Source: Prochlorococcus sp. AG-355-A18 (GTDB lineage: Bacteria; Cyanobacteriota; Cyanobacteriia; PCC-6307; Cyanobiaceae). From it: 56,059 bases of DNA. This document shows, in pieces, positions 39,569 to 56,059 of the stretch. The notes under the pieces are model-generated. The model did no database searches and was not told where the DNA came from. It saw only the letters and a list, made by a program, of their open reading frames with translations. The DNA is taken from the NCBI GenBank assembly GCA_003280985.1, contig QCDH01000006.1, forward strand, positions 1 to 56,059, written 5' to 3'. Made by a program: the position numbers and the translations under genes. Position 1 is the stretch's first letter, and the number at the start of each line of letters is the position of its first letter.

Positions 39569-40291
39569 ATGACTACCAGAATAAATAAATATTTAAGTGA
39601 AGTCGGTTATTGTTCTAGAAGAGAAGCAGATAGATTAATCCTAGAAGGAAAAGTAACAATTAATGGCAAAATTCCAGAAATTGGAACCAAAGTAGAAGAT
39701 AGTGATCAAGTAGAAGTTAAAGGTCAAAGAATAGAAAAATCAAAGAGATTAAAAAACATATACCTAGCCTTTAATAAACCCGTAGGGATTGTTTGCACAA
39801 CAGATAGAAAAGTAGAACCCAATAATGTCATAGATTTCATCAAATATCCTAAGAGAATTTTTCCCATCGGAAGATTAGATAAGCTCAGTGAGGGATTGAT
39901 TTTTTTAACTAATGATGGAGATATCGTAAATAAAATACTCAGAGCAAGAAATAATCATGAAAAGGAATATATTGTAAAAGTTAATCGTCCAATTAATAGT
40001 GACTTTATTAAAAACATGAGTAATGGAGTCGCAATATTAGACACAATAACTAAAAATTGTATCGTAAAACAATTGGGTCCAAGAAATTTTAAAATAATAC
40101 TCACACAAGGACTTAACCGCCAGATTAGAAGAATGTGTGAGGCCTTGGGATATAGAGTCAGATCATTAAAGCGTGTAAGAATTATGAATATTAAATTAGA
40201 CGTGCCGACAGGAAAATATAGAGAACTTAGTAAAGAAGAACTCTGGGAACTAAATAGATTACTCCAAAACTCCTCAAAAACATATGAATAA
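39569..40291 (+). CDS. rluF: RluF-type 23S rRNA pseudouridine synthase
   Basis: 240 aa. S4 domain at residues 1-60 (INKYLSEVGYCSRREADRLILEGKVTINGK), then the RsuA/RluB/E/F catalytic domain with FPIGRLDKLSEGLIFLTNDGD (catalytic Asp) and LTQGLNRQIRRMCEALGYRVRSLKRVRIMN. It looks closest to RluF (KPVGIVCTT, RARNNHEKEYIVKV), which modifies U2604 and tRNA-Tyr in E. coli. It lacks the long basic tail of the E. coli enzyme. An RluF-like gene among island genes suggests transfer. Confidence 0.88.
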   Translation: MTTRINKYLSEVGYCSRREADRLILEGKVTINGKIPEIGTKVEDSDQVEVKGQRIEKSKRLKNIYLAFNKPVGIVCTTDRKVEPNNVIDFIKYPKRIFPIGRLDKLSEGLIFLTNDGDIVNKILRARNNHEKEYIVKVNRPINSDFIKNMSNGVAILDTITKNCIVKQLGPRNFKIILTQGLNRQIRRMCEALGYRVRSLKRVRIMNIKLDVPTGKYRELSKEELWELNRLLQNSSKTYE

Positions 40292-40434: not shown

Positions 40435-40689
40435 TTAAAGGATTGGATAAGCTATCCATCCAAACAAGGCATAGTTAATAATGACAGCCATGAAACCTAT
40501 CATTGCAAGCCTTCCATTTGTTCTTTCAGCAATGAACCAATAGGTATTCGGCCATTCAAAACTCCCCTCTATCTTCGATTTTTGATCTTCTGTAATTGGA
40601 TCCTCTTTGGGAGCATTATCTTGGTCAAGATAATAATTACTATCTGGGTAAAAGCTTTCACTTGAAAAGTTATCTTTAAATTTACTCAT
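40435..40689 (-). CDS. hli: High-light-inducible protein, long form, 84 aa
   Basis: A hydrophilic N-terminal ~50 residues, then FIAERTNGRLAMIGFMAVIINYALFGWIAYPIL with the Hli ERTNGR.AM.G signature and the NYALFGW ending seen in the gene at 1466-1594. Confidence 0.9.
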   Translation of the reverse strand: MSKFKDNFSSESFYPDSNYYLDQDNAPKEDPITEDQKSKIEGSFEWPNTYWFIAERTNGRLAMIGFMAVIINYALFGWIAYPIL

Positions 40690-41576: not shown

Positions 41577-41621
41577 GATTGACAGTCGATCTAAAATAAG
41601 GGGCAATTAGCTCCTTTTTTA
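41577..41621 (+). promoter_or_regulatory. Promoter-leader cassette, copy 4
   Basis: GATTGACAGTCGATC (a near-perfect dyad, GATTGAC-A-GTCGATC) abuts the -10 candidate TAAAAT (41592-41597). AAGGGGCAATTAGCTCCTTTTTTA and the ATG follow. About 40 of 45 bases are identical to the copy at 55919-55963. Confidence 0.6.
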
Positions 41622-44070: not shown

Positions 44071-44113
44071 TAAAATAGGAAATAATTGCACCTTGATTGT
44101 AGATCGACTTTCA
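44071..44113 (-). promoter_or_regulatory. Promoter-leader cassette, copy 5 (minus strand)
   Basis: On the minus strand: TTTTGAAAGTCGATCTACAATCAAGGTGCAATTATTTCCTATTTTA, then the ATG. GTCGATCTA.AAT.A.GG.GCAATTA is shared with the copies at 41577 and 55919. The first bases fall just inside the AT-rich region at 44113. Confidence 0.5.
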
Positions 44114-44165
44114 AAAAAATAAATTTTGGATAACTGAAATTTTAAGAAAATCTCAAATTGAAATC

Positions 44166-44202: not shown

Positions 44203-44228
44203 AAAAAAAGCGAGTCTGGGTAACTCGC
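44203..44228 (-). terminator. tRNA-Pro terminator, first copy
   Basis: On the minus strand GCGAGT-taccca-g-ACTCGC-like stem (GCGAGT / ACTCGC) followed by seven T. The same terminator recurs at 44903-44927, in the same position relative to the tRNA-Pro remnant. Confidence 0.75.
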
Positions 44229-44250
44229 TAGTATGACATGCTTTTTAAGA

Positions 44251-44293
44251 GTCGGGGCGACAGGATTCGAACTTGCGACCTAGTGCTCCCAAA
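44251..44293 (-). other. Partial tRNA-Pro (3' end), attachment-site remnant, copy 1
   Basis: 43 bases match the copy at 44951-44993 with one change. They cover the acceptor 3' strand CGCCCCG, the T-arm (TTCGAA) and part of the anticodon arm. The D-arm and 5' acceptor strand are absent, and the 3' end reads ACT rather than ACCA, so this is not a working tRNA. Such 3'-end duplicates are left when an element integrates into a tRNA gene. Confidence 0.8.
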
Positions 44294-44308
44294 TCACTTG
44301 GGAAAATA

Positions 44309-44773
44309 CTAAATAAATCTAAAAAGAATATTCCTCATAAATGGGAATAATCTAAACCCTTTTTTGGTCTTTTCTTTTGGAAGAAGAAAATTCTCGCAAT
44401 ACTTATCACTATCTCCAACAAGCTTTTCTAATTCCAATTTTGATTCTCTATAGCTTTGACTTCTTTTATCACCAAGTTGATAAGTACATAAATATTTCAA
44501 TCTTTCATTTCTGATCACTGGTTGTAATTGCCTTATAAGAAAAAATATTGTGAGTGAAAGGCTTATAAAACCGGTGAAAATAATAATTGAGGGGAAAATA
44601 GATGAAGAAAAGGAATCATTATTTTTCCTTTTTACTATTTTTCTAGATTTGGAATGAACTTTTTTTCTTCCCTTTACACTATTTCGAGATAATCCTTTAG
44701 TTCTTTTTTTTAACAAACTTCTTAAGGAATATGCGCATATGTTTCTTGTATCGCTTAGAAGGTGGCAAGACAA
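44309..44773 (-). CDS. Basic membrane-anchored protein between the two tRNA-Pro remnants, 154 aa
   Basis: A very basic N-half (KKRTKGLSRNSVKGRKKVHSKSRKIVKRK), one membrane helix near residues 60-80 (IIIFTGFISLSLTIFFLI), then YLCTYQLGDKRSQSYRESKLELEKLVGDSDKYCENFLL. TTG start; the true start may be internal. The gene fills the ~700-base segment bounded by the duplicated terminator plus tRNA fragment. Function unknown. Confidence 0.55.
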   Translation of the reverse strand: MSCHLLSDTRNICAYSLRSLLKKRTKGLSRNSVKGRKKVHSKSRKIVKRKNNDSFSSSIFPSIIIFTGFISLSLTIFFLIRQLQPVIRNERLKYLCTYQLGDKRSQSYRESKLELEKLVGDSDKYCENFLLPKEKTKKGFRLFPFMRNILFRFI

Positions 44774-44857
44774 GTTATGAATACATAAAAAGTTTTATAA
44801 GGTATTTAAAAACAACTCATTGTAAAGTTATTTATTTTTGATCGACTTTTACTAAAG

Positions 44858-44890
44858 TTGACCACTATTTGACCACATTTCGATTGGTCA
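44858..44890. repeat. Repeated TTGACCAC sites near the attachment region
   Basis: TTGACCAC occurs at 44858-44865 and 44869-44876, 11 bases apart (one helical turn), with an inverted TGGTCA at 44885-44890. It could be a binding site for the recombinase or a directionality factor. Confidence 0.4.
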
Positions 44891-44902
44891 TATTTTTGTA
44901 AT

Positions 44903-44927
44903 AAAAAAGCGAGTCTTGGTAACTCGC
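44903..44927 (-). terminator. tRNA-Pro terminator, second copy
   Basis: GCGAGT / ACTCGC stem with a T-run on the minus strand, 22 bases beyond the 3' end of the tRNA-Pro fragment at 44949. Nearly identical to 44203-44228. Confidence 0.75.
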
Positions 44928-44948
44928 TAGTATTGATTGGTTTTGAGA

Positions 44949-45000
44949 TGGTCGGGGCGACAGGATTCGAACCTGCGACCTAGTGCTCCCAAAGCACTGA
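44949..45000 (-). other. Partial tRNA-Pro (3' end incl. CCA), attachment site next to the recombinase
   Basis: Minus-strand reading: anticodon arm AGTGC-TTTGGGA-GCACT with anticodon TGG (Pro), variable loop, T-arm GCAGG-TTCGAAT-CCTGT, acceptor CGCCCCG, then ACCA. The 5' half (D-arm, acceptor CGGGGCG) is missing: sequence beyond 45000 is unrelated. It lies 90 bases from the recombinase start, the usual att-int layout. The complete tRNA-Pro gene is not in this window. Confidence 0.85.
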
Positions 45001-45056
45001 GGTCATATTAGTGAGACAAAGGGATTCAAGCTATAACTTAAGTCATACTCTGAATA

Positions 45057-45075
45057 AGACTGCACGAGACTGCAC
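45057..45075 (+). repeat. Tandem AGACTGCAC repeats upstream of the recombinase
   Basis: AGACTGCAC at 45057-45065 and again at 45067-45075, a 10-base period, between the tRNA remnant and the recombinase start. Fits an arm-type recombinase-binding site or an autoregulatory operator. Confidence 0.45.
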
Positions 45076-45089
45076 ACTTTTGCATTTAT

Positions 45090-46397
45090 GTGTTGAAAAT
45101 CCACGGATTTCCGTGGACGATAGATAGAGCACTAGGTTGGTTGGTGACACAAACAAACAGTTGGGTAAGGGATTTTAGAAGGGCAATAAAAACTTCTGTT
45201 GGGTCTGGTTGGACAGTTGAAAATGACAGGGGAAATATGCGTCTAATAGTTGGAAAAAAAACAGAAGGTAGAACATCCGTTAGCCTTCCATATGCTTGGA
45301 AAGAATCACAATGGCTTGAAGCTGCACAGTTTATAAAGGTTGGAGCAGATGCTTATAAGGCAAATAATGGATTAATTTCTATAAGAACTGCTTTAAGAAA
45401 CACTAAAAATTCTTCTTCTGAACGCCAACTTGATTGGGAGGGTGCTCTTATTCGTTATAGAAAAACCAATATAAGAACAATAAAAGAACCAACTTGGAAG
45501 AAAAAGCATTTGCCTGTTTTAGAGGGAGTTATGTTTTATATGAATAAGGCAAACTATAAGCCACAAAATTCAAAGACACTTCATAAGAAAGTTCTTAATG
45601 AATATGTTCATGGAAAGTACAAACAAATAACTGGTTGGGAGTTGGGTACAACTCAAAGAAGACACATGAGATTGGCCTTTAATAAATTTCTGGATCATTG
45701 CTGTAACCATGAAGAATTTCCTTCATATTGGCGCCCTATTGATCCAATAGTCGCAGGGGAAAGAGATGATTTGATCGGAGATAACAAGAGAATTGGTTAT
45801 CCACTAACAGATGCCCAGATTGGAAGATTGGTTGATGGCTTTGGAGATCATGATCAAGCCCAAAGATGGAAATTTGCTGTTCAAATTTGTGCAGTATATG
45901 GTTTAAGACCAGAAGAACTTAATCATTTAGTTCTAAGAAATAACAAGTCAGAACTTTGGTGTACTTATCGGAAGACAAATTCTAATTTCAAAGAAAGAAA
46001 ATTATTACCTTTATTGGTTAGAGATATAGATGGGAAAGCTTTTGATTGGTGTTATAACTTGGTTCAAAGATTGGCAGCGGGAGAAAAATTACCAGAAATA
46101 CCTAAAGGAAAAGGAGGACAGAATTTTGGTGATTACTTGAGAAGGAAAAGTATTCGGAATATATGGAAATCTATTTGTGCTGAAGCTAGAGCAGAAGGTT
46201 TGGAATGTGTTCCATATTCCTTCCGTCATAGATATGCGTATGTTGCTCACACCAAGCCACAACAAGATGGAACCATGAGAACAATTAAACAAATTGCTGA
46301 TTTAATGGGACATGATCCAGATACCAACCTAAAAAGTTACGCTAGATTCCAAACTAAGGACCTGGAGAAAGCATCTGACTTGGCGGAAATAGAATGA
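45090..46397 (+). CDS. int: Tyrosine recombinase / integrase of a tRNA-Pro element
   Basis: 435 aa, GTG start (the ATG two bases earlier is out of frame). N-terminal ~200 residues form arm/core DNA-binding domains. The catalytic domain shows Arg in CAVYGLRPEELNHL, a box resembling HxxR with Tyr in the first place (PYSFRHRYAY), His in LMGHDPDTNLKSY and the nucleophile Tyr in KSYARF. Size and position beside a tRNA 3' fragment match the large recombinases of Prochlorococcus tycheposons. It would cut and rejoin the element at tRNA-Pro. Confidence 0.92.
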   Translation: MLKIHGFPWTIDRALGWLVTQTNSWVRDFRRAIKTSVGSGWTVENDRGNMRLIVGKKTEGRTSVSLPYAWKESQWLEAAQFIKVGADAYKANNGLISIRTALRNTKNSSSERQLDWEGALIRYRKTNIRTIKEPTWKKKHLPVLEGVMFYMNKANYKPQNSKTLHKKVLNEYVHGKYKQITGWELGTTQRRHMRLAFNKFLDHCCNHEEFPSYWRPIDPIVAGERDDLIGDNKRIGYPLTDAQIGRLVDGFGDHDQAQRWKFAVQICAVYGLRPEELNHLVLRNNKSELWCTYRKTNSNFKERKLLPLLVRDIDGKAFDWCYNLVQRLAAGEKLPEIPKGKGGQNFGDYLRRKSIRNIWKSICAEARAEGLECVPYSFRHRYAYVAHTKPQQDGTMRTIKQIADLMGHDPDTNLKSYARFQTKDLEKASDLAEIE

Positions 46398-46720: not shown

Positions 46721-48820
46721 TTATATTTCCCCTTCAAATCCAAAATCTTTAACCAATTTATAAATATCCAATAATCTTTGAGATTGTCCTATTGTTGGTG
46801 CAAAAATATCATTCATGCCTTTTGCATCGCGCAGTAATATTGAATCAGAACTTTCAAGTTTAACAACATTTTGATTGCCAACCCAGTCCTCGATTTCTTG
46901 CCAAATTTTGACTGGAGCATTAGAAATCTTATTTAATAAATCATATTGCTCAATTTTTGCTGTTTTTTCTTTTTCAATTTTTTCAAGTCTATTGTAATCG
47001 GTGGCAGAAATAAGATAATCATCTAATTTTTTTGACCATTGAATAGCTGAAAGTTGAATATTTTCCCAACATTTCTTATTTCTTGCATACTCACGAGCAT
47101 CTCTATTCATTCCTTCAGGTGGATTCATTATTAGGAAATTTATATCTTTAGCTACTCGCAATAATTCATCAACAAGATTCTGGTTTATAGACTGTTCAGA
47201 CCAAACTTTCATGAAATTAAATTTTAGTTTGGCCTTCTTAAGCTTCAAAGTTAATAAACCAATAGTAAATGCCACTACAGTACTTTTGAAATCGCTTATA
47301 CTTTCTCTTCCCATTTCTCTATAAAAATCTTTGTATATAATCGCCTTCGCAACTAACTCTTTAAAATATTTTTCATTAATTTGATCACTTTTCTTTGACC
47401 ATAATTCTTCAATTCCATTAAAAAATTCTACATAACTTGCATTACCTTTCCCCCTCATTATCGCTTCAATTTTGCAATCCCATAAGTTTTGATAAAGCGC
47501 TAAATTGACTTTATCTATTTTTTGCTTTGAAGGAAATTCTTTATCAAAATTTTTCCTTTGTGCTTTAGTTTTATTTTTACTTTTTGCATATTTATATTGA
47601 CCTCTAGATCTTTCATAAAACCAATGTGATGACCTTATAGAATTTGGAGCAGGGGGAGCAGATATCTTTTTTGACAAATTTTCAATCTGAATATGAAAAG
47701 AATGATTTGAAGAAAAATCAGAAACATTTACTGTATTTTGAGTATTTGCAAAACGGGAAACCTTTGAAACAAAACTATCTGCATCCTCCCAATCTTTTGT
47801 AACTTCAGACAATTTCATTTGTACAAAAACTTTACTCAAATCAGCACTACTAAACTTATTAGCAAATTTTGATGCTGCATAAATTGAAGAAACTGTTTGA
47901 CCTCCATTAACTATTTGTAAATTAATTATTTTAGTTATTGCTCTTACTCCAGTATCTAAAGTTTTAACTTCAACCTTATCTGCAGTAGCTGTAATACCAT
48001 TATTGTATGCAAAAAACATTGAGGGCGTATCTTGAATCGTATCTCTAATTCCTCTATTGATTTTTGATGTTGCCTGCAAAAAAACTCTTACATTTTTTTC
48101 TAATAATCTATTCCCCCAATTATCGAAGATTTCAGCTATTAGATCTCCAGGCAAAACTGTTAAATAAGATTGATAGGAACTATCAAAACTATGAGCAACT
48201 AAAACTGGTAATGATTTCTTATGCTCTTCTAAATCTATAATAATTTCTGGTTTTTCTTCTACCCCACTTTCAAGGAGTTCAATCCTTTCATAATCACAAA
48301 TAATAATTTGAGCTTTAATATCTCCAATCTTTGGTGCACTTAAACTATCAGATCTAATTTTTATAACTTTATTTGTTAGCACAATTATCCTAATCTGAGA
48401 TAAAAGATCCATTTTCCCTGAAAGAGTTTGTATAGCAGAGAAGACAGGATTACTTTCTTCAATCTGTAAAAATTCTTTTGAATTAATTTTAGATATAAAA
48501 TTTGTACCTCTCTTGAGCAAAGCCTCTAAATCCTTTAAGTAAAGACCCTCTAACTCTTCAGATTGAGTAAAATCTGTCAGAAAAACTGTAAGCTTTCTAT
48601 TATCATCAAGTGGGTTTCCACCATATCCAGCAAATTGTAATCCAGGTCTTTTAAAAGGAGCAAAGATAGCATCTTGTATTTCGCCTTCCTCTATTAATAA
48701 GTTTGTAACTCTATAAAAAAAAGCTTCATAGGGTTCTTGTCCACAATCAATAGCAGTATTACTTATCTCATAAAGAAATTGCTCATAAGAATTATCTTCT
48801 AGATGCTCTTCTTCATTCAT
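46721..48820 (-). CDS. AIPR-family protein (abortive infection phage resistance)
   Basis: 699 aa. The AIPR core is seen near residues 245-320: MFFAYNNGITATADKVEV and IINLQIVNGGQTVSSIYAASKFA, then VQMKLSEVT and FANTQNTVNVSDFSSNHSFH. AIPR proteins occur in Abi and restriction-like operons; the activity is not firmly known, and a nuclease or effector role is usually proposed. Last gene of the minus-strand defence operon, overlapping the PD-(D/E)XK gene by 4 bases (ATGA). Confidence 0.9.
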   Translation of the reverse strand: MNEEEHLEDNSYEQFLYEISNTAIDCGQEPYEAFFYRVTNLLIEEGEIQDAIFAPFKRPGLQFAGYGGNPLDDNRKLTVFLTDFTQSEELEGLYLKDLEALLKRGTNFISKINSKEFLQIEESNPVFSAIQTLSGKMDLLSQIRIIVLTNKVIKIRSDSLSAPKIGDIKAQIIICDYERIELLESGVEEKPEIIIDLEEHKKSLPVLVAHSFDSSYQSYLTVLPGDLIAEIFDNWGNRLLEKNVRVFLQATSKINRGIRDTIQDTPSMFFAYNNGITATADKVEVKTLDTGVRAITKIINLQIVNGGQTVSSIYAASKFANKFSSADLSKVFVQMKLSEVTKDWEDADSFVSKVSRFANTQNTVNVSDFSSNHSFHIQIENLSKKISAPPAPNSIRSSHWFYERSRGQYKYAKSKNKTKAQRKNFDKEFPSKQKIDKVNLALYQNLWDCKIEAIMRGKGNASYVEFFNGIEELWSKKSDQINEKYFKELVAKAIIYKDFYREMGRESISDFKSTVVAFTIGLLTLKLKKAKLKFNFMKVWSEQSINQNLVDELLRVAKDINFLIMNPPEGMNRDAREYARNKKCWENIQLSAIQWSKKLDDYLISATDYNRLEKIEKEKTAKIEQYDLLNKISNAPVKIWQEIEDWVGNQNVVKLESSDSILLRDAKGMNDIFAPTIGQSQRLLDIYKLVKDFGFEGEI

Positions 48821-49839
48821 AATTCATTAAAAATATAGTCAAGACTTTCTAGTGCATTATCTTTCAAACCTTCAAGTGATAATTTATATTTTACTTCTCT
48901 TATAAAAGTACAATTAACTTTTTTAGGTGTGATCCCTGGGCATTTGTCATCAATTAAAAAAAGCTGATAGGGTTCAACATATATCCAGAAATCGTCCTTG
49001 TAGTTATGTTGTTCATCATATTTACTCTTATATAATTCACCAAGAAATTGATCTAGGTAATTGCTATCGTTTTGCAAAATAAACTCTTTGATTTCTGTAA
49101 CCTTATCTGTAAGAGTGAAGCTATTTGGTTTTAATTTTGTAGAAGCATCAATAGTAAAAACTAGTAAAAATAATTTAGATAAACCATCCATGCTAAGTTG
49201 ATCTTCTGAAGATATTTGAACCTCCCCTTTTAATCCTCCTTGCTTTGCTTTAACTTCTATTCCGACAGAGCTTAAAAGAAAATCCTTTGAAAGTTTATCT
49301 TGACCTTTCCAAGATTCTAATGAATTCTTGATGCCAATTTCCTTCATTAAAAGTTCTAAAAAAATTAATTCCCCAATTAATCCTTTTTGTTCAAATGCCT
49401 TTAATTTATCAACTTTTTTATTCCTCATAAAAAGCTTCCATTGATTACATTTCATAAAAATGTTGTTTAATAGATCAGGCTCTGAAGAACAGGTATCCGC
49501 TCCCGAAACAATGTTTCTAGAGAAGATATCAAAAGGCTCAAGAAACATTGAATTTATAATTCTTATATCCATACAAAGTCTTTTATTATTTTTAATTATT
49601 AATGGTTTAATTTTAATTTCACTCCACTCAGGAAATTTCTTAGCTTCTAATTTTTCTATATTTATTTTTTTAAAAAATATTCTCATACCATAGTCTCCAT
49701 TATTATCTTTGAAATGAACCATATCCCATCCTTTTTTTGAATAAATTGTCCTATATTCAATATCATCAAGAGGAGGCCTTTTAGCCATTTGCAAACTTAT
49801 CAAGTTTTCATCAATGCCCCTAACTATTTCTTTATCCAT
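48817..49839 (-). CDS. PD-(D/E)XK motif protein, DUF4420 family
   Basis: 340 aa. The nuclease-like core is GLIGELIFLELLMKEIG (conserved Glu), then SKDFLLSSVGIEVKAKQG, the Asp...ExK signature of PD-(D/E)XK enzymes. DUF4420 proteins are found with Z1 ATPases and are the likely DNA-cleaving subunit. It overlaps the Z1 gene by one base and AIPR by four, so the subunits are probably made in fixed ratio. Confidence 0.88.
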   Translation of the reverse strand: MDKEIVRGIDENLISLQMAKRPPLDDIEYRTIYSKKGWDMVHFKDNNGDYGMRIFFKKINIEKLEAKKFPEWSEIKIKPLIIKNNKRLCMDIRIINSMFLEPFDIFSRNIVSGADTCSSEPDLLNNIFMKCNQWKLFMRNKKVDKLKAFEQKGLIGELIFLELLMKEIGIKNSLESWKGQDKLSKDFLLSSVGIEVKAKQGGLKGEVQISSEDQLSMDGLSKLFLLVFTIDASTKLKPNSFTLTDKVTEIKEFILQNDSNYLDQFLGELYKSKYDEQHNYKDDFWIYVEPYQLFLIDDKCPGITPKKVNCTFIREVKYKLSLEGLKDNALESLDYIFNEL

Positions 49840-52706
49840 TAATCATCTCCATCATCATAATCTTCACTAATTCGATCAATATCGGCATTTCTATAAACTT
49901 CTTTTGGGAATTCCTCAATCCCACTTTCAGGCAAACGATAACTAAGTGAACAGCATACATCGATATCCTTTGAATATCCCAAGAATTCCTCGTATTGCTT
50001 ATAAAAAGGACTATTCTCTTTTAAATCATCTAATACAAGCTTATAAATTGTTATGAACAATAAAGGTCTTGAAGTAACCATTGAAATTGCTTTTGATAAA
50101 CCTAGTTTCCCATCACATTTTTTAATTAAATCTTTTGCTCTATCCAATTCTTCTTTGGATGCAGTTATATTCTCAACATCATTTGACCTTATAAGATTAT
50201 TCTGACCAACTGCAGTAGTAATTGATTTTGTATTATTCAAAAACTTTTCATCTATTCTGGTTAATCTATTCACAGGTCTTATATTCAAACCTCCGACATC
50301 GATCCCGCCAGGCTTTTTGTATGAGTTGGTGTCAATAATTACATCCCAATTAGAAAGTTCTGATTTCCTTTCTTTTAAATAATTAAAAAATGATTCTTGG
50401 TCTATTTGTACATTGTCGGATGAAATAATATGTTTTTCAGTAATATCAAAAATTTCATCAAAAGGAATTTTCCTAAATGCATACGAGCTATTCAAATTCT
50501 CATTTATTTCAGAACTTAATATATTTTCTGAATAATTAGTTGCTAACTTTTTAACGAATTTTAGTCCCTCATCAGTATTTCTTTTTATACTCAACTTATC
50601 TTTTGGAATTAGATAATTGCTTATCAATTTACCAGAATAAGTAAGGGTGATCCTTACCTTTTCTGCTGCACCCATCTTTGGTCTAGATGTAATCATTAAC
50701 CTTTTAGCATCAGGATGACTTCTCACATATAAAGCAAATTCTCTAGGAGTTTTTCTTTGGGTTTCTAAAATTTTTATTTGACTATTTAGATGATTAATAA
50801 CTTCTGCAATATGTTTGAAATCCTCTACTGCATTTTCAGTCATATAAAGTCTACAAATATTTTCATAATCATCTCTATAACCAAACCAACGTCCCATCTG
50901 CAAAATAGTATCGTACATCCTTGAAGTTCTTAAGTAATAAGAGGAAATCAATCCTTTTAAAGTAAGTCCCCTTGATAACGAATAACCTCCAACGGCTATT
51001 ACAACTCTTCCATTGGGGTATTCATCATAATTTAATCTTTCAGAAACACCTTTTATTCTATTAACGACAATTACATCAATCTTATTAGCAACCATATGAA
51101 TCAAAGGTTTCAAATCTTTCCAAGAAATATTTGGCTTATCTTCTGAAAAATTACTTTCCCAAAAATTTTTCATTTCTCTGTAATATCTGTAATTTTTTTC
51201 AGCCTTTTTATCATCTAATCCCGCTGATGCTTTTAGAGAATCGGCAACTAGATTTTTATATGAATTTATTACATTAGCAATTGAGACTTGAACATCTGAA
51301 TAACAAGATGCATTTACCAGCATAGATGAGTGTTTATTTTTATAACCTTCAGACCAACGAATTGTTGTTGCAATGATAAAACTTTTTATTGCGTTCTGAA
51401 GAGATTCCGGTACTTCATCTAATTCGAAATCTTTCTTATGAGGGATAGTAATACCCGTTCCATCTAGTGTTTCTTCAATATCTATTTTTTTTATAAAATT
51501 TTTATATCTTCTTGTAAGAAAAGATTGAGTTGGTCCAAAATAATTGTCTGCAGGATCAAGATAAGAAATAAAATCCCTTGGGAAAAGATCTTGTTTTAAA
51601 ACATCATCAAAAGTTTTTGGACTAATAAAAATATTTGCAAAGGGTGTTGCCGTATATCCAATGTAGGTGCAAGTAGTAAATTTTTTTAAAATAAGTCTTA
51701 AATTCCTGTTAATAGCAGTAACGTTAAAGTTCTCTGGATTTTCCTCTGGATAAAGATTCTGAACTGGATCATCTTTTTTATTTTGATTTTTAGTCGTATT
51801 TTTTTTCCTTCTACTTTTTATATCAATTGAGGCATTATCTGCTTCATCATCAATCAATAATAATGGAAGAGGGATCCTATCATCATCATAATTTTTTCTA
51901 ATTTTATTTAGCCAAGTATTTAAATGCTTTAATGTATTAGTATTTTTTTTAACAACTATTACATATGGAGCAGATTGAGTAATATTAATTAAATCTGAAT
52001 TAGTTTTTGATTTCGTAAAATCATTTTCTCTATCAGTTACACAAATCGGCTTATATTTCTCATCCCTCTCAGAAAAATTACCAATACCCACTTTTTCACC
52101 TTTAATATCATTTACACCAACAAAACTTTCTTCTAATCTTTCTTGTGTTTGTCTTCTTAAATCCTCTAGCATTCCAGCTATAACAATAATTACCTTATAA
52201 CCAGCATCAGCTGCTTTACAGATTAATCCAAGGTAATTAGCAGTTTTACCAGATTGGACATTACCAACAACCATTCCTTTCCTTGTAGTAAGGCTTTTTT
52301 GTGGATCAGCACAATATTCAAGGATTGATTCTGTATTTCTATCTAAAGCATTAATAGGTCCTTTTAATGTATCTGGCCAATCCTCATTTATTTTTAAATG
52401 CCTTCTGTAGTCGTCCCAATATATACTTTTTATTTCTCCTTTTCTATCTTTGTACCAAGGCTCAAAAGTTGAAGAATCGACAAGTACAACTCCATCTTCC
52501 ATAGTTCTACTTAAATTTGAAAAAACCTTTCTAATAACAAAATCTTTTTGTTCCTCAGTTGCATAATCTTGAAAAAGATCCTCTAAGTTTTTTATTTTGT
52601 TCATTACCACTTCTGTTAGCTTTTCACCTCCAGTCAAATCTTCATAATCTTGAAGAATAAGTCCTTGGATCATTGTGATGGCGAGAGCAATATTGTCTTG
52701 TTTCAT
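49839..52706 (-). CDS. Z1-domain ATPase
   Basis: 955 aa, superfamily-2-like motor. Walker A GNVQSGKTANYLGL near residue 148, motif Ia VIIVIAGMLEDLRRQTQERL, Walker B LLLIDDEADNASID near 285, TATPFANIF (motif III-like), and the Z1 region GGYSLSRGLTLKGLISSYYLR...QMGRWFGYRDDY near 575-615, with the arginines expected of motifs V/VI. Proposed to move on DNA or remodel it for the partner nuclease. Central gene of the operon. Confidence 0.92.
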   Translation of the reverse strand: MKQDNIALAITMIQGLILQDYEDLTGGEKLTEVVMNKIKNLEDLFQDYATEEQKDFVIRKVFSNLSRTMEDGVVLVDSSTFEPWYKDRKGEIKSIYWDDYRRHLKINEDWPDTLKGPINALDRNTESILEYCADPQKSLTTRKGMVVGNVQSGKTANYLGLICKAADAGYKVIIVIAGMLEDLRRQTQERLEESFVGVNDIKGEKVGIGNFSERDEKYKPICVTDRENDFTKSKTNSDLINITQSAPYVIVVKKNTNTLKHLNTWLNKIRKNYDDDRIPLPLLLIDDEADNASIDIKSRRKKNTTKNQNKKDDPVQNLYPEENPENFNVTAINRNLRLILKKFTTCTYIGYTATPFANIFISPKTFDDVLKQDLFPRDFISYLDPADNYFGPTQSFLTRRYKNFIKKIDIEETLDGTGITIPHKKDFELDEVPESLQNAIKSFIIATTIRWSEGYKNKHSSMLVNASCYSDVQVSIANVINSYKNLVADSLKASAGLDDKKAEKNYRYYREMKNFWESNFSEDKPNISWKDLKPLIHMVANKIDVIVVNRIKGVSERLNYDEYPNGRVVIAVGGYSLSRGLTLKGLISSYYLRTSRMYDTILQMGRWFGYRDDYENICRLYMTENAVEDFKHIAEVINHLNSQIKILETQRKTPREFALYVRSHPDAKRLMITSRPKMGAAEKVRITLTYSGKLISNYLIPKDKLSIKRNTDEGLKFVKKLATNYSENILSSEINENLNSSYAFRKIPFDEIFDITEKHIISSDNVQIDQESFFNYLKERKSELSNWDVIIDTNSYKKPGGIDVGGLNIRPVNRLTRIDEKFLNNTKSITTAVGQNNLIRSNDVENITASKEELDRAKDLIKKCDGKLGLSKAISMVTSRPLLFITIYKLVLDDLKENSPFYKQYEEFLGYSKDIDVCCSLSYRLPESGIEEFPKEVYRNADIDRISEDYDDGDD

Positions 52707-54127
52707 AACAGCTCAATAATTTTCTCTTTGGAAAATGTGATATTACTATTTTGCAAAAACTTCAAAACTAAACCCACAATTAATTGATTTTCAATATTAC
52801 TTTCCTTTAAATCCGATATAAATTTTTTAATTAAATTTAGTGATTCATCTTCGTTATCATTCCATTTAATAACAACCTCTTTGCCATCACTCATTAATCT
52901 AAAAATCTCTTCATAGGGTAATGTATTTTCAATTAATCGAATAGCATCCAAATTTTCATCTGATTTGCTAATGAACTTCTTAATTATTGGATTATTTATA
53001 TTTATTGAAAAATATGCTTGCGAGTCCTTACTCATCTTTTTCCATACATCTAAATGATTTGTCTCAAAAGTAGTAACAGGTTTTCTTGTATAAACTTTTA
53101 CTCCTTGCTTCTCAAGTTTAGAAAGATAGTTATCTAACATATCTCTTATTTCTTTTGGCGGTGAAGCATTACTTTTTTTAATATCAATCTTCCAATCAGT
53201 ATCCTTCTCATTACTTATGTCAATTTTAACTCTGCAAAATTTTGTATATTCTGTTTTCTTTAAAAGCCCAAACCAAGTTCCATTAATTATTAATCGTCCT
53301 TCTCTATAAACATAAAACCCTTGATTTTTTGTATACCCACCATTACCTTCATATTTTTCCCACTCTTCTAATTTGACCTTCGTTTTATGAGGCAAAATAA
53401 ATGATTGAATCTTAATTTTTGAATCTTGATATTTATGTTCAAAAGGTTCATGTCTTATGGTTGCAAAATTATTTTCATTAAAAGGATTAAAAGCATCAAT
53501 AAAAATATTATTAAACTTAATTTTTATATTTCTTTGTTGATTATTTCCGATATCAATAAATCTATGAAAAACCAAACCAAGATGCTCTCTAATATTTCTA
53601 ATGGTTGCATTTGTTGAGGGAGTGTCTATTTCTAAATTTGCCCTATCAATTTTTTTCCAGATAACTTTAGTGCCTTGTTTTTTATTTGCAATAAAATTTT
53701 TTCTTACAGACCAATCATTTTTGCTTTTAACTTCATCAAGATCCCATGTCATTGAACTTGGTAATCCATGCATAGTAGTTTCTACTGTTAATTGCCTGCA
53801 TTGCGAAAGAGAAGAAGTTTTAAGTCCCATGCCAAAACGCCCAAGATCATTTTTGCTCCTTACTAAATTCCTATCCTTTGAACATAAACGCATTGCTTGC
53901 AATAATTCATCTTCAGTCATTCCAAAACCATCATCATCAATAGTCAACATTGGTTGACCATTTTCGTCTTTATCTAAATTAATTTCAATATTAGAAGCCT
54001 CTGCAGATATTGAATTATCAACTAAATCAGCAATAGCAGTTTCGATAGTATACCCAAAATCCCTGATACTTTCCATAAGAAAAGCAGCGGAGGGAGATGC
54101 ATCAATATATTCTGGTTCAATTCCCAT
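52703..54127 (-). CDS. GHKL (HSP90-like) ATPase, MORC/MutL-related
   Basis: 474 aa. Bergerat-fold motifs: N box IETAIADLVDNSISA (residues ~30-45), G1 TIDDDGFGMTEDEL, G2 DLGRFGMGLKTSSLSQC, then an S5-like transducer domain with IKKSNASPP. Such ATPases clamp around DNA and are known in R-M-type operons with Z1, DUF4420, AIPR, Vsr and C5-methylases, where bacterial relatives of MORC were first described. It overlaps the Z1 gene by 4 bases. Confidence 0.9.
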   Translation of the reverse strand: MGIEPEYIDASPSAAFLMESIRDFGYTIETAIADLVDNSISAEASNIEINLDKDENGQPMLTIDDDGFGMTEDELLQAMRLCSKDRNLVRSKNDLGRFGMGLKTSSLSQCRQLTVETTMHGLPSSMTWDLDEVKSKNDWSVRKNFIANKKQGTKVIWKKIDRANLEIDTPSTNATIRNIREHLGLVFHRFIDIGNNQQRNIKIKFNNIFIDAFNPFNENNFATIRHEPFEHKYQDSKIKIQSFILPHKTKVKLEEWEKYEGNGGYTKNQGFYVYREGRLIINGTWFGLLKKTEYTKFCRVKIDISNEKDTDWKIDIKKSNASPPKEIRDMLDNYLSKLEKQGVKVYTRKPVTTFETNHLDVWKKMSKDSQAYFSININNPIIKKFISKSDENLDAIRLIENTLPYEEIFRLMSDGKEVVIKWNDNEDESLNLIKKFISDLKESNIENQLIVGLVLKFLQNSNITFSKEKIIELL

Positions 54128-54223: not shown

Positions 54224-55345
54224 TTAAGCACAGATTGGTAATGTGATTTTTTCTTTCAAAATATCTTTTTGAAGGATATATTCACTCATAGCTTTAGCAA
54301 TTTCTTTAATAACAGGAACAACTACAGAATTACCAAATTGCCTATAGGCCTGCGAATCAGAAACTGGAATTATAAAATTTGATTCCCCAGTTTTATCAAA
54401 GCCCATCAACCTTGAGCATTCTCTTGGAGTTAATCTTCTTGGATTCTTTTTATCTCCCTGATGTATTAATATCTCAGCACCATCCTTGTGGTATCTTGCA
54501 GACAATGTTCTAGCAACATCTTCATGCTTACATAAGCCAAAACCAAATCCATTACCTCTTGCTCTATGCTTTTTTTCATACATCCTTAAATAGTCCCATA
54601 ATCTATTCGTGATGGTGTATTTCTCATTCACTTTTGAAAGATGCGGAATAGTGTATGGTTCTTCAAAAGTTTCAGATCCATCTTCAGAATGAAGTACTGA
54701 AGATAATGTTGGACCATCTGATATTTCCGGAATAATTAAATCATCAAAATTAAAATTGTTTTCTTCCCTAAAACCGACAATATAAATTCTCTGTCTATTT
54801 TGAGGAACATAAGATTTTGCATTTATTACGCGATATTGAACTTTATAACCAAGCTTATTTTTTAATACGTCAAGAATAGTTTTAAAAGTCTGACCTTTAT
54901 CATGACTTTTCAGATTTTTTACATTTTCCAGAAGAAACGCTTTGGGTCTATGGTGCTCGAGAATCCTTGCTATTTCGAAAAATAAAGTCCCCTGGATCTT
55001 ACAATCAAAGCCATGAGATTTACCAAGTGAATTTTTTTTACTTACTCCTGCAAGACTAAAAGGCTGGCATGGAAATCCCGCTAAGAGCACATCATGACTT
55101 GGGATGTATTTTGTATCTACTTCTCTTATATCTCCAGCCAGTTCATGATCTATTACAAAATTAGCTTTATATGTTTCTTGAGCATATTTATCAATTTCAC
55201 TTGTAAAAACACAGTTACCTCCAATAGATTCAAATCCTTTTCTAAAGCCACCTATGCCCGCAAAGAGATCAATAAAATCAAAATGTTTTTGAACAATATT
55301 TAATTGTTTAAATTTAGATTTTCTAATCTGTAATCCCTTTAATTC
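54224..55345 (-). CDS. DNA cytosine-5 methyltransferase; start codon not resolved
   Basis: All C5-MTase motifs are present: [32 protein letters not shown] with catalytic Cys, [43 protein letters not shown] and [14 protein letters not shown]. The frame runs open from 55345, yet has no ATG, GTG or TTG before motif I; the first candidate is a GTG at 55090, after motif I and just before motif IV. Upstream, another frame ([16 protein letters not shown]) looks as if it should join at about 55340, so a one- or two-base frameshift is likely. Otherwise a rare start such as ATT is used. Role: protects self DNA. Confidence 0.88.
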
Positions 55346-55387
55346 TTATTAAATATGGCACTGAGATCTTCAAAGTCAACCAATTCA

Positions 55388-55804
55388 TTAACTAAAGATA
55401 TCAAATATTTTCGCTTTTAAGTTTTCAACATCCTTAGTTTCACATTCCCAGATAACTACAGATCTCCATTCGATGTTTTTAATTTTTTCCTGAATTTCTA
55501 AGTCTCTTTTAATATTTGCTTTGAATTTATTTTCCCAGAATTCTTTCCTTGTTTTTGGATTGGAGGCATATTTGCAGTTTTCATGCCTATGCCAGAAACA
55601 TCCGTGGACAAAGATAACTGTTTTATATTTTGGTAGAACAATATCAGGGGACCCAGGTAAATCTTTCCCATGCAATCTGAATCTATATCCCATTGAATGT
55701 AAAAGTTTCCTCACTGCAATTTCAGGCTTTGTATTCTTAGATTTAATTGCAGACATATTCCTGGACCTCTGCTCAGTAACCTTATGTAAAACTTCCCTGC
55801 TCAT
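55388..55804 (-). CDS. vsr: Very short patch repair endonuclease Vsr
   Basis: 138 aa from the ATG at 55804. Nicks DNA 5' of T in T:G mismatches made when 5-methylcytosine deaminates. Motifs: RSRNMSAIKSKNTKPE, GYRFRLHGKDLPGSPDIVLPKYKTVIFVHGCFWHRHENC (catalytic Asp in SPDIV, zinc ligands His/Cys) and WRSVVIWECE. First gene of the defence operon, upstream of the methyltransferase it serves. Confidence 0.94.
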   Translation of the reverse strand: MSREVLHKVTEQRSRNMSAIKSKNTKPEIAVRKLLHSMGYRFRLHGKDLPGSPDIVLPKYKTVIFVHGCFWHRHENCKYASNPKTRKEFWENKFKANIKRDLEIQEKIKNIEWRSVVIWECETKDVENLKAKIFDIFS

Positions 55805-55918
55805 CAAACTTAATAGTTTCTAAACAATATACTCACAATCAAAATATAGGTACTTTATTGCTTTATTTAATCTGAAGGTTTGGTAAAGTTTTTTAGCCGT
55901 TATATCTATATTTAATAC

Positions 55919-55963
55919 GATTGACAGTCGATCTAAAATGAGGAGCAATTAGCTTCTTTTTTT
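55919..55963 (+). promoter_or_regulatory. Promoter-leader cassette, copy 6
   Basis: GATTGACAGTCGATC dyad, TAAAAT -10, then GAGGAGCAATTAGCTTCTTTTTTT and the ATG. Nearly identical to 41577-41621, 14.3 kb away in the same orientation. The few changes lie mainly in the GG(A/G)GC...GCT(C/T)C part. Confidence 0.6.
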
Positions 55964-56059
55964 ATGTCTCTTGAAACTACTGTTTTTAAATTCAAAATTA
56001 GTGTCCCTTATGAAGAATGGGCTGCTGTTTATGACAGCGAAGAAAATATAAAAATGATG
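55964..56059 (+). CDS. DUF3764 family protein, 5' part (runs off the window)
   Basis: MSLETTVFKFKISVPYEEWAAVYDSEENIKMM is visible. The opening (ETT.(F/L).F..S..(Y/F)E.(W/Y)) matches the DUF3764 protein at 28971. Driven by the cassette promoter. It lies just outside the defence operon, divergent from vsr. Confidence 0.78.
   Translation, partial: MSLETTVFKFKISVPYEEWAAVYDSEENIKMM

Follow-up and report, generated by a model that had tools for sequence, protein, structure and literature searches.

Displaced tRNA-Pro(TGG) halves as probable remnants of repeated integration at one Prochlorococcus tRNA gene

Two tRNA-Pro halves on one contig

The stretch of DNA analysed here (the window) is 56,059 bp long and makes up an entire contig (QCDH01000006.1, here C6) of the Prochlorococcus sp. 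AG-355-A18 assembly, which comprises 33 contigs and 1.18 Mb and is 70% complete. In the window, the 3' half of a tRNA-Pro(TGG) gene (nucleotides, nt, 29-75) together with its terminator is present as two direct copies, 700 bp apart on the minus strand. A gene of 154 amino acids (aa) lies between the copies, and a tyrosine recombinase gene, hereafter the integrase, lies beside the second. The features, including putative attachment (att) sites and an open reading frame (ORF), are as follows.

44204-44245, minus strand: terminator that would have ended the tRNA gene when copy 1 was its 3' end; same stem as in a third partial copy, on contig C8
44251-44297 (repeat 44251-44298), minus strand: copy 1, displaced tRNA-Pro(TGG) 3' half (nt 29-75) with 2 substitutions; putative older att remnant
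44309-44773, minus strand: 154-aa ORF, putative cargo of an older unit (copy 2 - ORF - copy 1)
44903-44944, minus strand: terminator joined to copy 2
44951-44997 (repeat to 44998), minus strand: copy 2, displaced 3' half (nt 29-75) without any difference from the intact gene; putative distal att site of an integrase-bearing element
44998-45089, no strand assigned: att arm between the core and the integrase, conserved in near relatives of the integrase and containing a direct repeat
45090-46397, plus strand: tyrosine recombinase of 435 aa, directed away from copy 2; its frame is open from 45054

The original prediction for this DNA had claimed a duplicated tRNA-Pro 3' end with terminator in one orientation, and this was borne out: a 45-nt pattern of the tRNA half, with up to 3 mismatches allowed, matched exactly copies 1 and 2 in the window and nothing in 100 shuffles of it. 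The shared tRNA part, given there as 43 bases, has to be corrected to 47 nt. The spacings between the copies are 700 and 699. Identity is 96% for the tRNA parts (48 nt) and 86% for the terminator parts (42 nt), and a terminator-like hairpin follows each tRNA half. ARAGORN detected no complete tRNA in the window.

The second copy alone had been said to keep both the CCA and the anticodon stem. This holds for the CCA and fails for the stem, as copy 1 retains the anticodon arm with one stem change; by hand-counted positions, its two changes are in the anticodon stem (nt 32) and the T-stem (nt 53). After the acceptor stem, copy 1 reads ACTC, while CCA is encoded in copy 2. The missing CCA, earlier taken as a sign of decay in copy 1, was rejected as such: 54 of 59 intact tRNA-Pro genes in the fetched stretches likewise read ACTC at this place, and CCA is encoded in four.

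The intact gene and the ends of the locus

The intact tRNA-Pro(TGG) gene of the same genome is found on contig C8 (C8:49096-49170; the contig ends at 53373). It does not encode CCA, and its terminator differs from those of the window copies (AGACAGG stem, by eye). A third partial copy (nt 2-75, 91%; the 3' half exact by eye) lies 2.3 kb downstream of the intact gene and is followed by the terminator of copy 1, and a 5' half (nt 1-42, 88%) lies 2.9 kb upstream. Just beyond the third partial copy there is a 108-aa ORF (L004 7591-7917) that to our eye resembles a small terminase subunit; it has no Pfam or PHROGs match. An intact gene with a different terminator had been named beforehand as the observation that would speak against repeated integration. 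Such a terminator is literally present on C8, yet it does not count against the model, because each insertion would bring its own 3' half and terminator, so that replacement is what the model predicts. The presence of copy 1's terminator after the third partial copy agrees with terminator replacement by insertion.

Two genes left of copy 1, named by us from sequence, serve as the distal anchor of the locus.

39569-40291, plus strand: rsuA-like gene
40435-40689, minus strand: hli-like gene

Both occur downstream of the tRNA gene in relatives, where the rsuA-like gene is 4.7-37.5 kb from it in 20 of 59 stretches, with reversed orientation in one genome (G023). The upstream anchor is a 170-aa gene that we take to be apt. 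Because the hli- and rsuA-like anchor stands left of copy 1, the window would be the distal end and C8 the proximal end of one hotspot, the two facing each other across an assembly gap, as synteny suggests. In this very genome, a unit of the kind that would enter from the 5' side lies on C8.

Partial copies across the genus

A query of 129 bp (the intact gene plus downstream DNA) had matches in 249 of 266 genomes of the genus. Full-length tRNA-Pro(TGG) with at most 3 mismatches was found in 168 of the 266, as a single copy in each except one (G007, with two). The G007 matches are at C2:595952 and C3:12471, and the C3 copy is so close to a contig end (17 bp) that it may reflect an overlap in the assembly. 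The single-copy gene is presumably essential, the counts covering tRNA-Pro(TGG) alone among proline tRNAs. The 3' halves (at most 3 mismatches, the intact gene included) number up to 16 per genome, and the 5' half has more than one match, the intact gene among them, in 41 of 266 genomes by a hand count of the table.

We fetched 61 stretches, and the 59 with exactly one intact gene form the basis of the partial-copy counts; these loci are related, so the counts are not independent. They hold 204 partial copies, all oriented like the intact gene. All 18 of the 5' halves are upstream of it, and 168 of 178 3' halves are downstream, as are seven long copies and one of another form. With longer stretches included, a 5' half occurs in 19 of the 59 and at least one downstream 3' half in 51; at least three downstream halves are present in 28, most of these halves having no integrase of their own. 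The sequences next to the 3' halves are many and different.

The ends of the halves are confined to narrow intervals: 146 of 178 3' halves start at nt 25-30, while 19 of 22 5' halves end at nt 40-44 and the other three at nt 33-35. Since the part common to both kinds is about nt 29-42, i.e., the anticodon stem-loop, the crossover would have taken place within it. Terminators, scored by a simple hairpin rule, vary among the 59 intact genes, with ten stem strings, some of which are length variants of each other, and none shown in four genes; the stem of copy 1's terminator is present in 21.

Proposed entry from the 5' side

The arrangement upstream of the tRNA gene goes beyond what the window sequence alone could show. 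In all 16 stretches containing both apt and a 5' half, the two are 144-359 bp apart, whereas the intact gene in the same stretches is 1283-21411 bp from apt. Where there is no 5' half, apt and the intact gene are separated by 179-1279 bp (n=19, median 342), all these distances being taken from the near end of apt. Because the 5' half stays near apt while the intact gene sits farther off, the 5' halves mark the native place of the gene. In two stretches, an integrase or a 3' half is upstream with no visible 5' half.

The 200 bp upstream of the 5' halves are native-like in 22 of 22 cases, and all 32 native genes match too, self-matches excluded. Among 26 displaced intact genes, 18 have native-like upstream DNA and eight do not, so some elements probably bring their own promoter. 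All eight adjoin an integrase type of 468 to 476 aa; two displaced intact genes with a 430-aa type match the native upstream DNA weakly. Upstream units that lack an integrase (L004 2200-5096 on C8, and others) have native-like DNA ahead of the displaced intact gene. In several of the upstream units, the left end that follows the 5' half is the same, TACCTTTTTA... Judging from these sequences, the tRNA-Pro site is entered from both ends, with 5' halves lying upstream and 3' halves downstream.

The integrase and its attachment site

The 435-aa protein is an integrase by PHROGs, where its matches are generic integrases only, and it has no Pfam match at an E value of 0.001. Three motifs resemble active-site segments: YGLRPEEL, YSFRHRYAY, and LMGHDPDTNLKSYARF. 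A tyrosine occupies the position that in most tyrosine recombinases belongs to the first histidine of HxxR. The direct repeat in the att arm probably represents arm-type binding sites.

Relatives of this protein at E 1e-10 were found in 86 of 266 genomes. We fetched 30 loci, one per genome from the best-scoring genomes, the own locus included and several of them identical, and the tRNA-Pro 3' half is beside the integrase in all 30. In 83 stretches, many of them picked for a tRNA or an integrase and hence a biased sample for linkage, there are 25 family ORFs, of which 13 are turned towards a 3' half and 10 towards the intact tRNA gene; two short ones (176 and 197 aa) have neither nearby. All 23 tRNA-facing ORFs do so by their start side and on the opposite strand. 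In a tree of 44 integrases, seven of them facing the intact gene, the intact-facing type stands in two places where long branches meet, and we do not claim two origins. Near-identical integrases (97%) are present in two genomes (G121 and G093), each with one stop codon.

The recombinase family is common to islands and to temperate cyanophage-like contigs. The exact 45-nt half occurs in eight IMG/VR contigs. In all six that have the 3' half only, an ORF of the integrase family adjoins it. The other two contain the whole tRNA: one (L191) has a partial integrase ORF 6.5 kb off, and the other (L190) has none in the 10 kb examined of its 76 kb. One 3'-half contig (L195) encodes a sigma factor, an Erf-like protein, and a RusA-like protein, and another (L196) carries a minor tail gene. 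In L195 the order is sigma factor, tRNA-Pro 3' half, integrase; L196 has the same order, with the position of the sigma factor taken by an ORF that resembles one by reading alone. Such an order is consistent with a phage att site. Between the L195 integrase and that of the window, identity is 29%; the window's integrase had no match in deposited phages. A search of the viral contigs with integrase peptide patterns gave one stretch matching a pattern, and no match was confirmed.

The 154-aa unit

The 700-bp unit between the copies has no integrase inside, and its 154-aa ORF has no Pfam or PHROG match at E 0.001 and no known domain. Relatives of the gene at E 1e-5 are present in 25 of 266 genomes, the own one included, and some weaker ones contain stop codons. 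In 20 fetched loci, the own one among them, a tRNA-Pro half is on at least one side of the gene in 15, on both sides in seven, and on neither in five; the halves of the two-sided loci are about 630-700 bp apart. The earlier suggestion that the gene was the cargo of an older event is supported by these relatives.

An alternative holds that the 154-aa gene is an old resident, that copy 1 came by some other rearrangement, and that copy 2 alone marks a true integration. The place of the gene is indeed kept: in 15 of the 20 loci, the stretch that holds it also has rsuA downstream. Still, a gene that is flanked by tRNA-Pro halves in three quarters of its loci, on both sides at a near-constant spacing in some, and that is restricted to so few genomes does not look like a resident, and we consider this explanation improbable. 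A currently mobile cassette, as the seven two-sided loci of 20 might suggest, was rejected: the segment is mostly kept near rsuA, and an old unit is likelier.

Probable order of the insertions

If 3' halves are pushed outward by successive insertions, those farther from the intact gene would be older. For the 28 stretches in which three or more 3' halves lie downstream (169 halves in total), we computed Spearman correlations within loci, with 5000 within-locus permutations. The identity of the 3' halves drops with rank from the intact gene (rho averages -0.54 and is below zero in 25 of the 28 loci), and none of the 5000 permutations was as low (p 0.0002, an optimistic value as the loci share kinship). 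The mean identity falls from 98.2% for the first half to about 92% for the seventh and beyond. In the layout proposed above, copy 2 (100%) would be nearer the intact gene than copy 1 (two changes), which fits this order. The displaced halves thus suggest a readable record of the order of past insertions.

The same trend bears on the possibility that the halves are retained for a function of their own, e.g., as terminators or tRNA-like RNAs insulating the cargo. A terminator is kept in 98 of 239 partial copies by the hairpin rule, as such a function would have it, but the halves decay with distance from the intact gene, as expected without selection, and we regard this explanation as very unlikely.

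Proposed integration model and its alternatives

The weakest alternative is a local tandem duplication, in which a 700-bp segment with a tRNA fragment was copied by slippage or unequal crossing-over and site-specific integration played no part; the common orientation, the high identity of the tRNA parts, and a further 26 nt that are 77% alike past the terminators agree with it, but strong likeness does not extend beyond the tRNA half and terminator, there is a single 154-aa ORF, the 3' halves of relatives start at preferred rather than random positions and have varied neighbours, and integrases of one family stand at a fixed side, which together make it hardly credible.

The two repeats are, very probably, what is left of att sites at the distal end of an integration hotspot, a tRNA-Pro(TGG) gene that elements have entered repeatedly. 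The original prediction had likewise proposed repeated integration at one tRNA-Pro with an old att site left behind, and the synteny of relatives, their halves and the decay order all lend support to it.

We infer the recombination chemistry and the mobility of the elements to be as follows. A tyrosine recombinase would integrate the element, in circular form, into the chromosome within the anticodon stem-loop, with GTGC-TTTGGGA-GCA as the shared core. As the att site of the element would carry a tRNA 3' half followed by a terminator, insertion would restore the gene at the point of entry and push the previous 3' half with its terminator to the far end of the element. Copy 2 would have been displaced by the element with the 435-aa integrase and the Mza, methylase, and Vsr genes, and copy 1, earlier, by the small unit with the 154-aa gene. 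Elements of the 5' side would instead bring a 5' half and the DNA preceding it, which in some cases would replace the promoter; they would leave the native 5' half beside apt and shift the intact gene downstream.

Several observations weigh against this model or parts of it. No excised circle and no pair of empty and filled sites was seen, and movement was not observed; the assembly leaves C8 and C6 unjoined; and 22 of 59 stretches stop short of apt. Ten of the 178 3' halves, from six loci (L054, L123, L125, L127, L130, L148), are upstream of the intact gene and need an extra event, perhaps the entry of a 5'-side element into a displaced 3' half, which would make a new intact gene there. When longer stretches are taken for some genomes, three of 245 partial copies are inverted, all in G006, and several genomes have halves on both strands, the strand being relative to each contig. 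The 154-aa unit seems to be old and mostly fixed near rsuA, and may long have been immobile. Finally, there is the weak second repeat (26 nt, 77%) past each terminator, at 44093-44118 and 44831-44856. It contains GATCGACT, also found on the other strand of the window at 41584 and 55926 and once on C8.

A wider proposal can be put forward tentatively: a single-copy, presumably essential tRNA gene may serve as a two-sided, cassette-like capture site, used by one recombinase family of islands and temperate cyanophage-like contigs through one anticodon-loop core. The att sites would bring in the 3' half together with a terminator, or else the 5' half together with a promoter. Integrase-less one-gene units of about 630-700 bp would be moved in trans, and decaying halves would date the insertions.

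Putative cargo of the outer element

The genes to the right of the integrase, all on the opposite strand to it, would be the cargo of the outer element.

46721-54127, minus strand: Mza-type defence genes (AIPR, DUF4420, Z1, HATPase), MzaB-E by PADLOC, with MzaD weak
54224-55807, minus strand: cytosine-5 methylase, whose frame extends further upstream, and Vsr endonuclease

A reading of the methylase as short was rejected, as its frame is open further upstream. Relatives of the Z1 gene are found in 16 of 200 genomes drawn from the genus, including the own one. In 29 integrase loci (with about 1.5 kb of flank) and 82 other stretches, the cargo of the window had no match except at its right end: the last ~150 bp (55908-56059) match sequences inside the tRNA-Pro islands of two loci (L047 and L117) at 84-91% in translation. 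The cargo is absent from the examined stretches of G121 and G093, which have near-identical integrases. The outer element extends past the end of the contig, so its full length is not spanned by the window.

Comparison with known systems

Prochlorococcus islands with arrays of tRNA-Pro fragments, as well as tycheposons, are already described in the literature. The tycheposons of Prochlorococcus, reportedly described by Hackl et al. in 2023, are similar to the elements considered here, in that they carry cargo, have a tyrosine recombinase and sit at tRNA genes within genomic islands; a tyrosine recombinase at an island tRNA gene, together with cargo, is what we find at this locus. Tycheposons are summarised in the available part of PMC10872708, and similar repeats at other tRNAs appear there and in the corresponding part of PMC2784084.

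The Islander tDNA islands (PMC4383910, available part) share with our locus the regenerated tRNA gene and the displaced fragment in the same orientation. In that set, the crossover is centred on the anticodon in 2083 of 3919 islands, 3760 islands have a 3' fragment and 159 a 5' fragment, and four tandem arrays have at least three members, every one with an integrase of its own. By contrast, 28 of our 59 stretches have at least three downstream halves, most of them integrase-less, and both types of halves occur at one gene. The regenerated gene with a 3' fragment downstream, by which such islands are recognised, is present on C8 and in relatives, and for the window only across the assembly gap. 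The outer element contains a tyrosine integrase; the 700-bp unit does not, and it is also below the lower limit of 2 kb (the accepted range is 2-200 kb). Integrons, with their IntI-type integrase and folded attC-type sites, were considered as an analogy for the small units that lack an integrase, but the PHROG matches of the window's integrase are generic.

At the site of cyanophage P-SS2 in MIT9313 (PMC2784084, available part), similarly, a phage integrase is beside an att site matching a tRNA, with five pseudo-tRNA genes nearby in a genomic island, but the tRNA is tRNA-Met rather than tRNA-Pro, and no two-sided arrangement is described in that part. For pTN3-like archaeal integrases, the available part of PMC8371274 treats a rebuilt tRNA driven by a promoter of the element as seldom met in bacteria, while here, in bacteria, one integrase family occurs with either half. 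The available part of PMC2441476 contains nothing on tRNA fragments. Among the titles and abstract openings of the literature searched, a set with the key Prochlorococcus papers outside it, none names a two-sided tRNA-Pro site. Hence, the repeats themselves belong to the known type of tRNA islands, and the two-sided use of one core may be a variant of it.

Significance

Prochlorococcus are among the most abundant kinds of cells in the ocean. At the hotspot described here, displaced tRNA halves give the order of insertions, so gains of defence and other cargo could be ordered from single genomes. The tRNA-Pro-specific integrase family, being common to islands and temperate cyanophage-like contigs, connects islands with viruses in a way that can be traced further. 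If the two-sided use of the site is true, mobile DNA would have been the source, in many lineages, of the two halves of this tRNA gene's sole copy, of its terminator and, in some cases at least, of its promoter.
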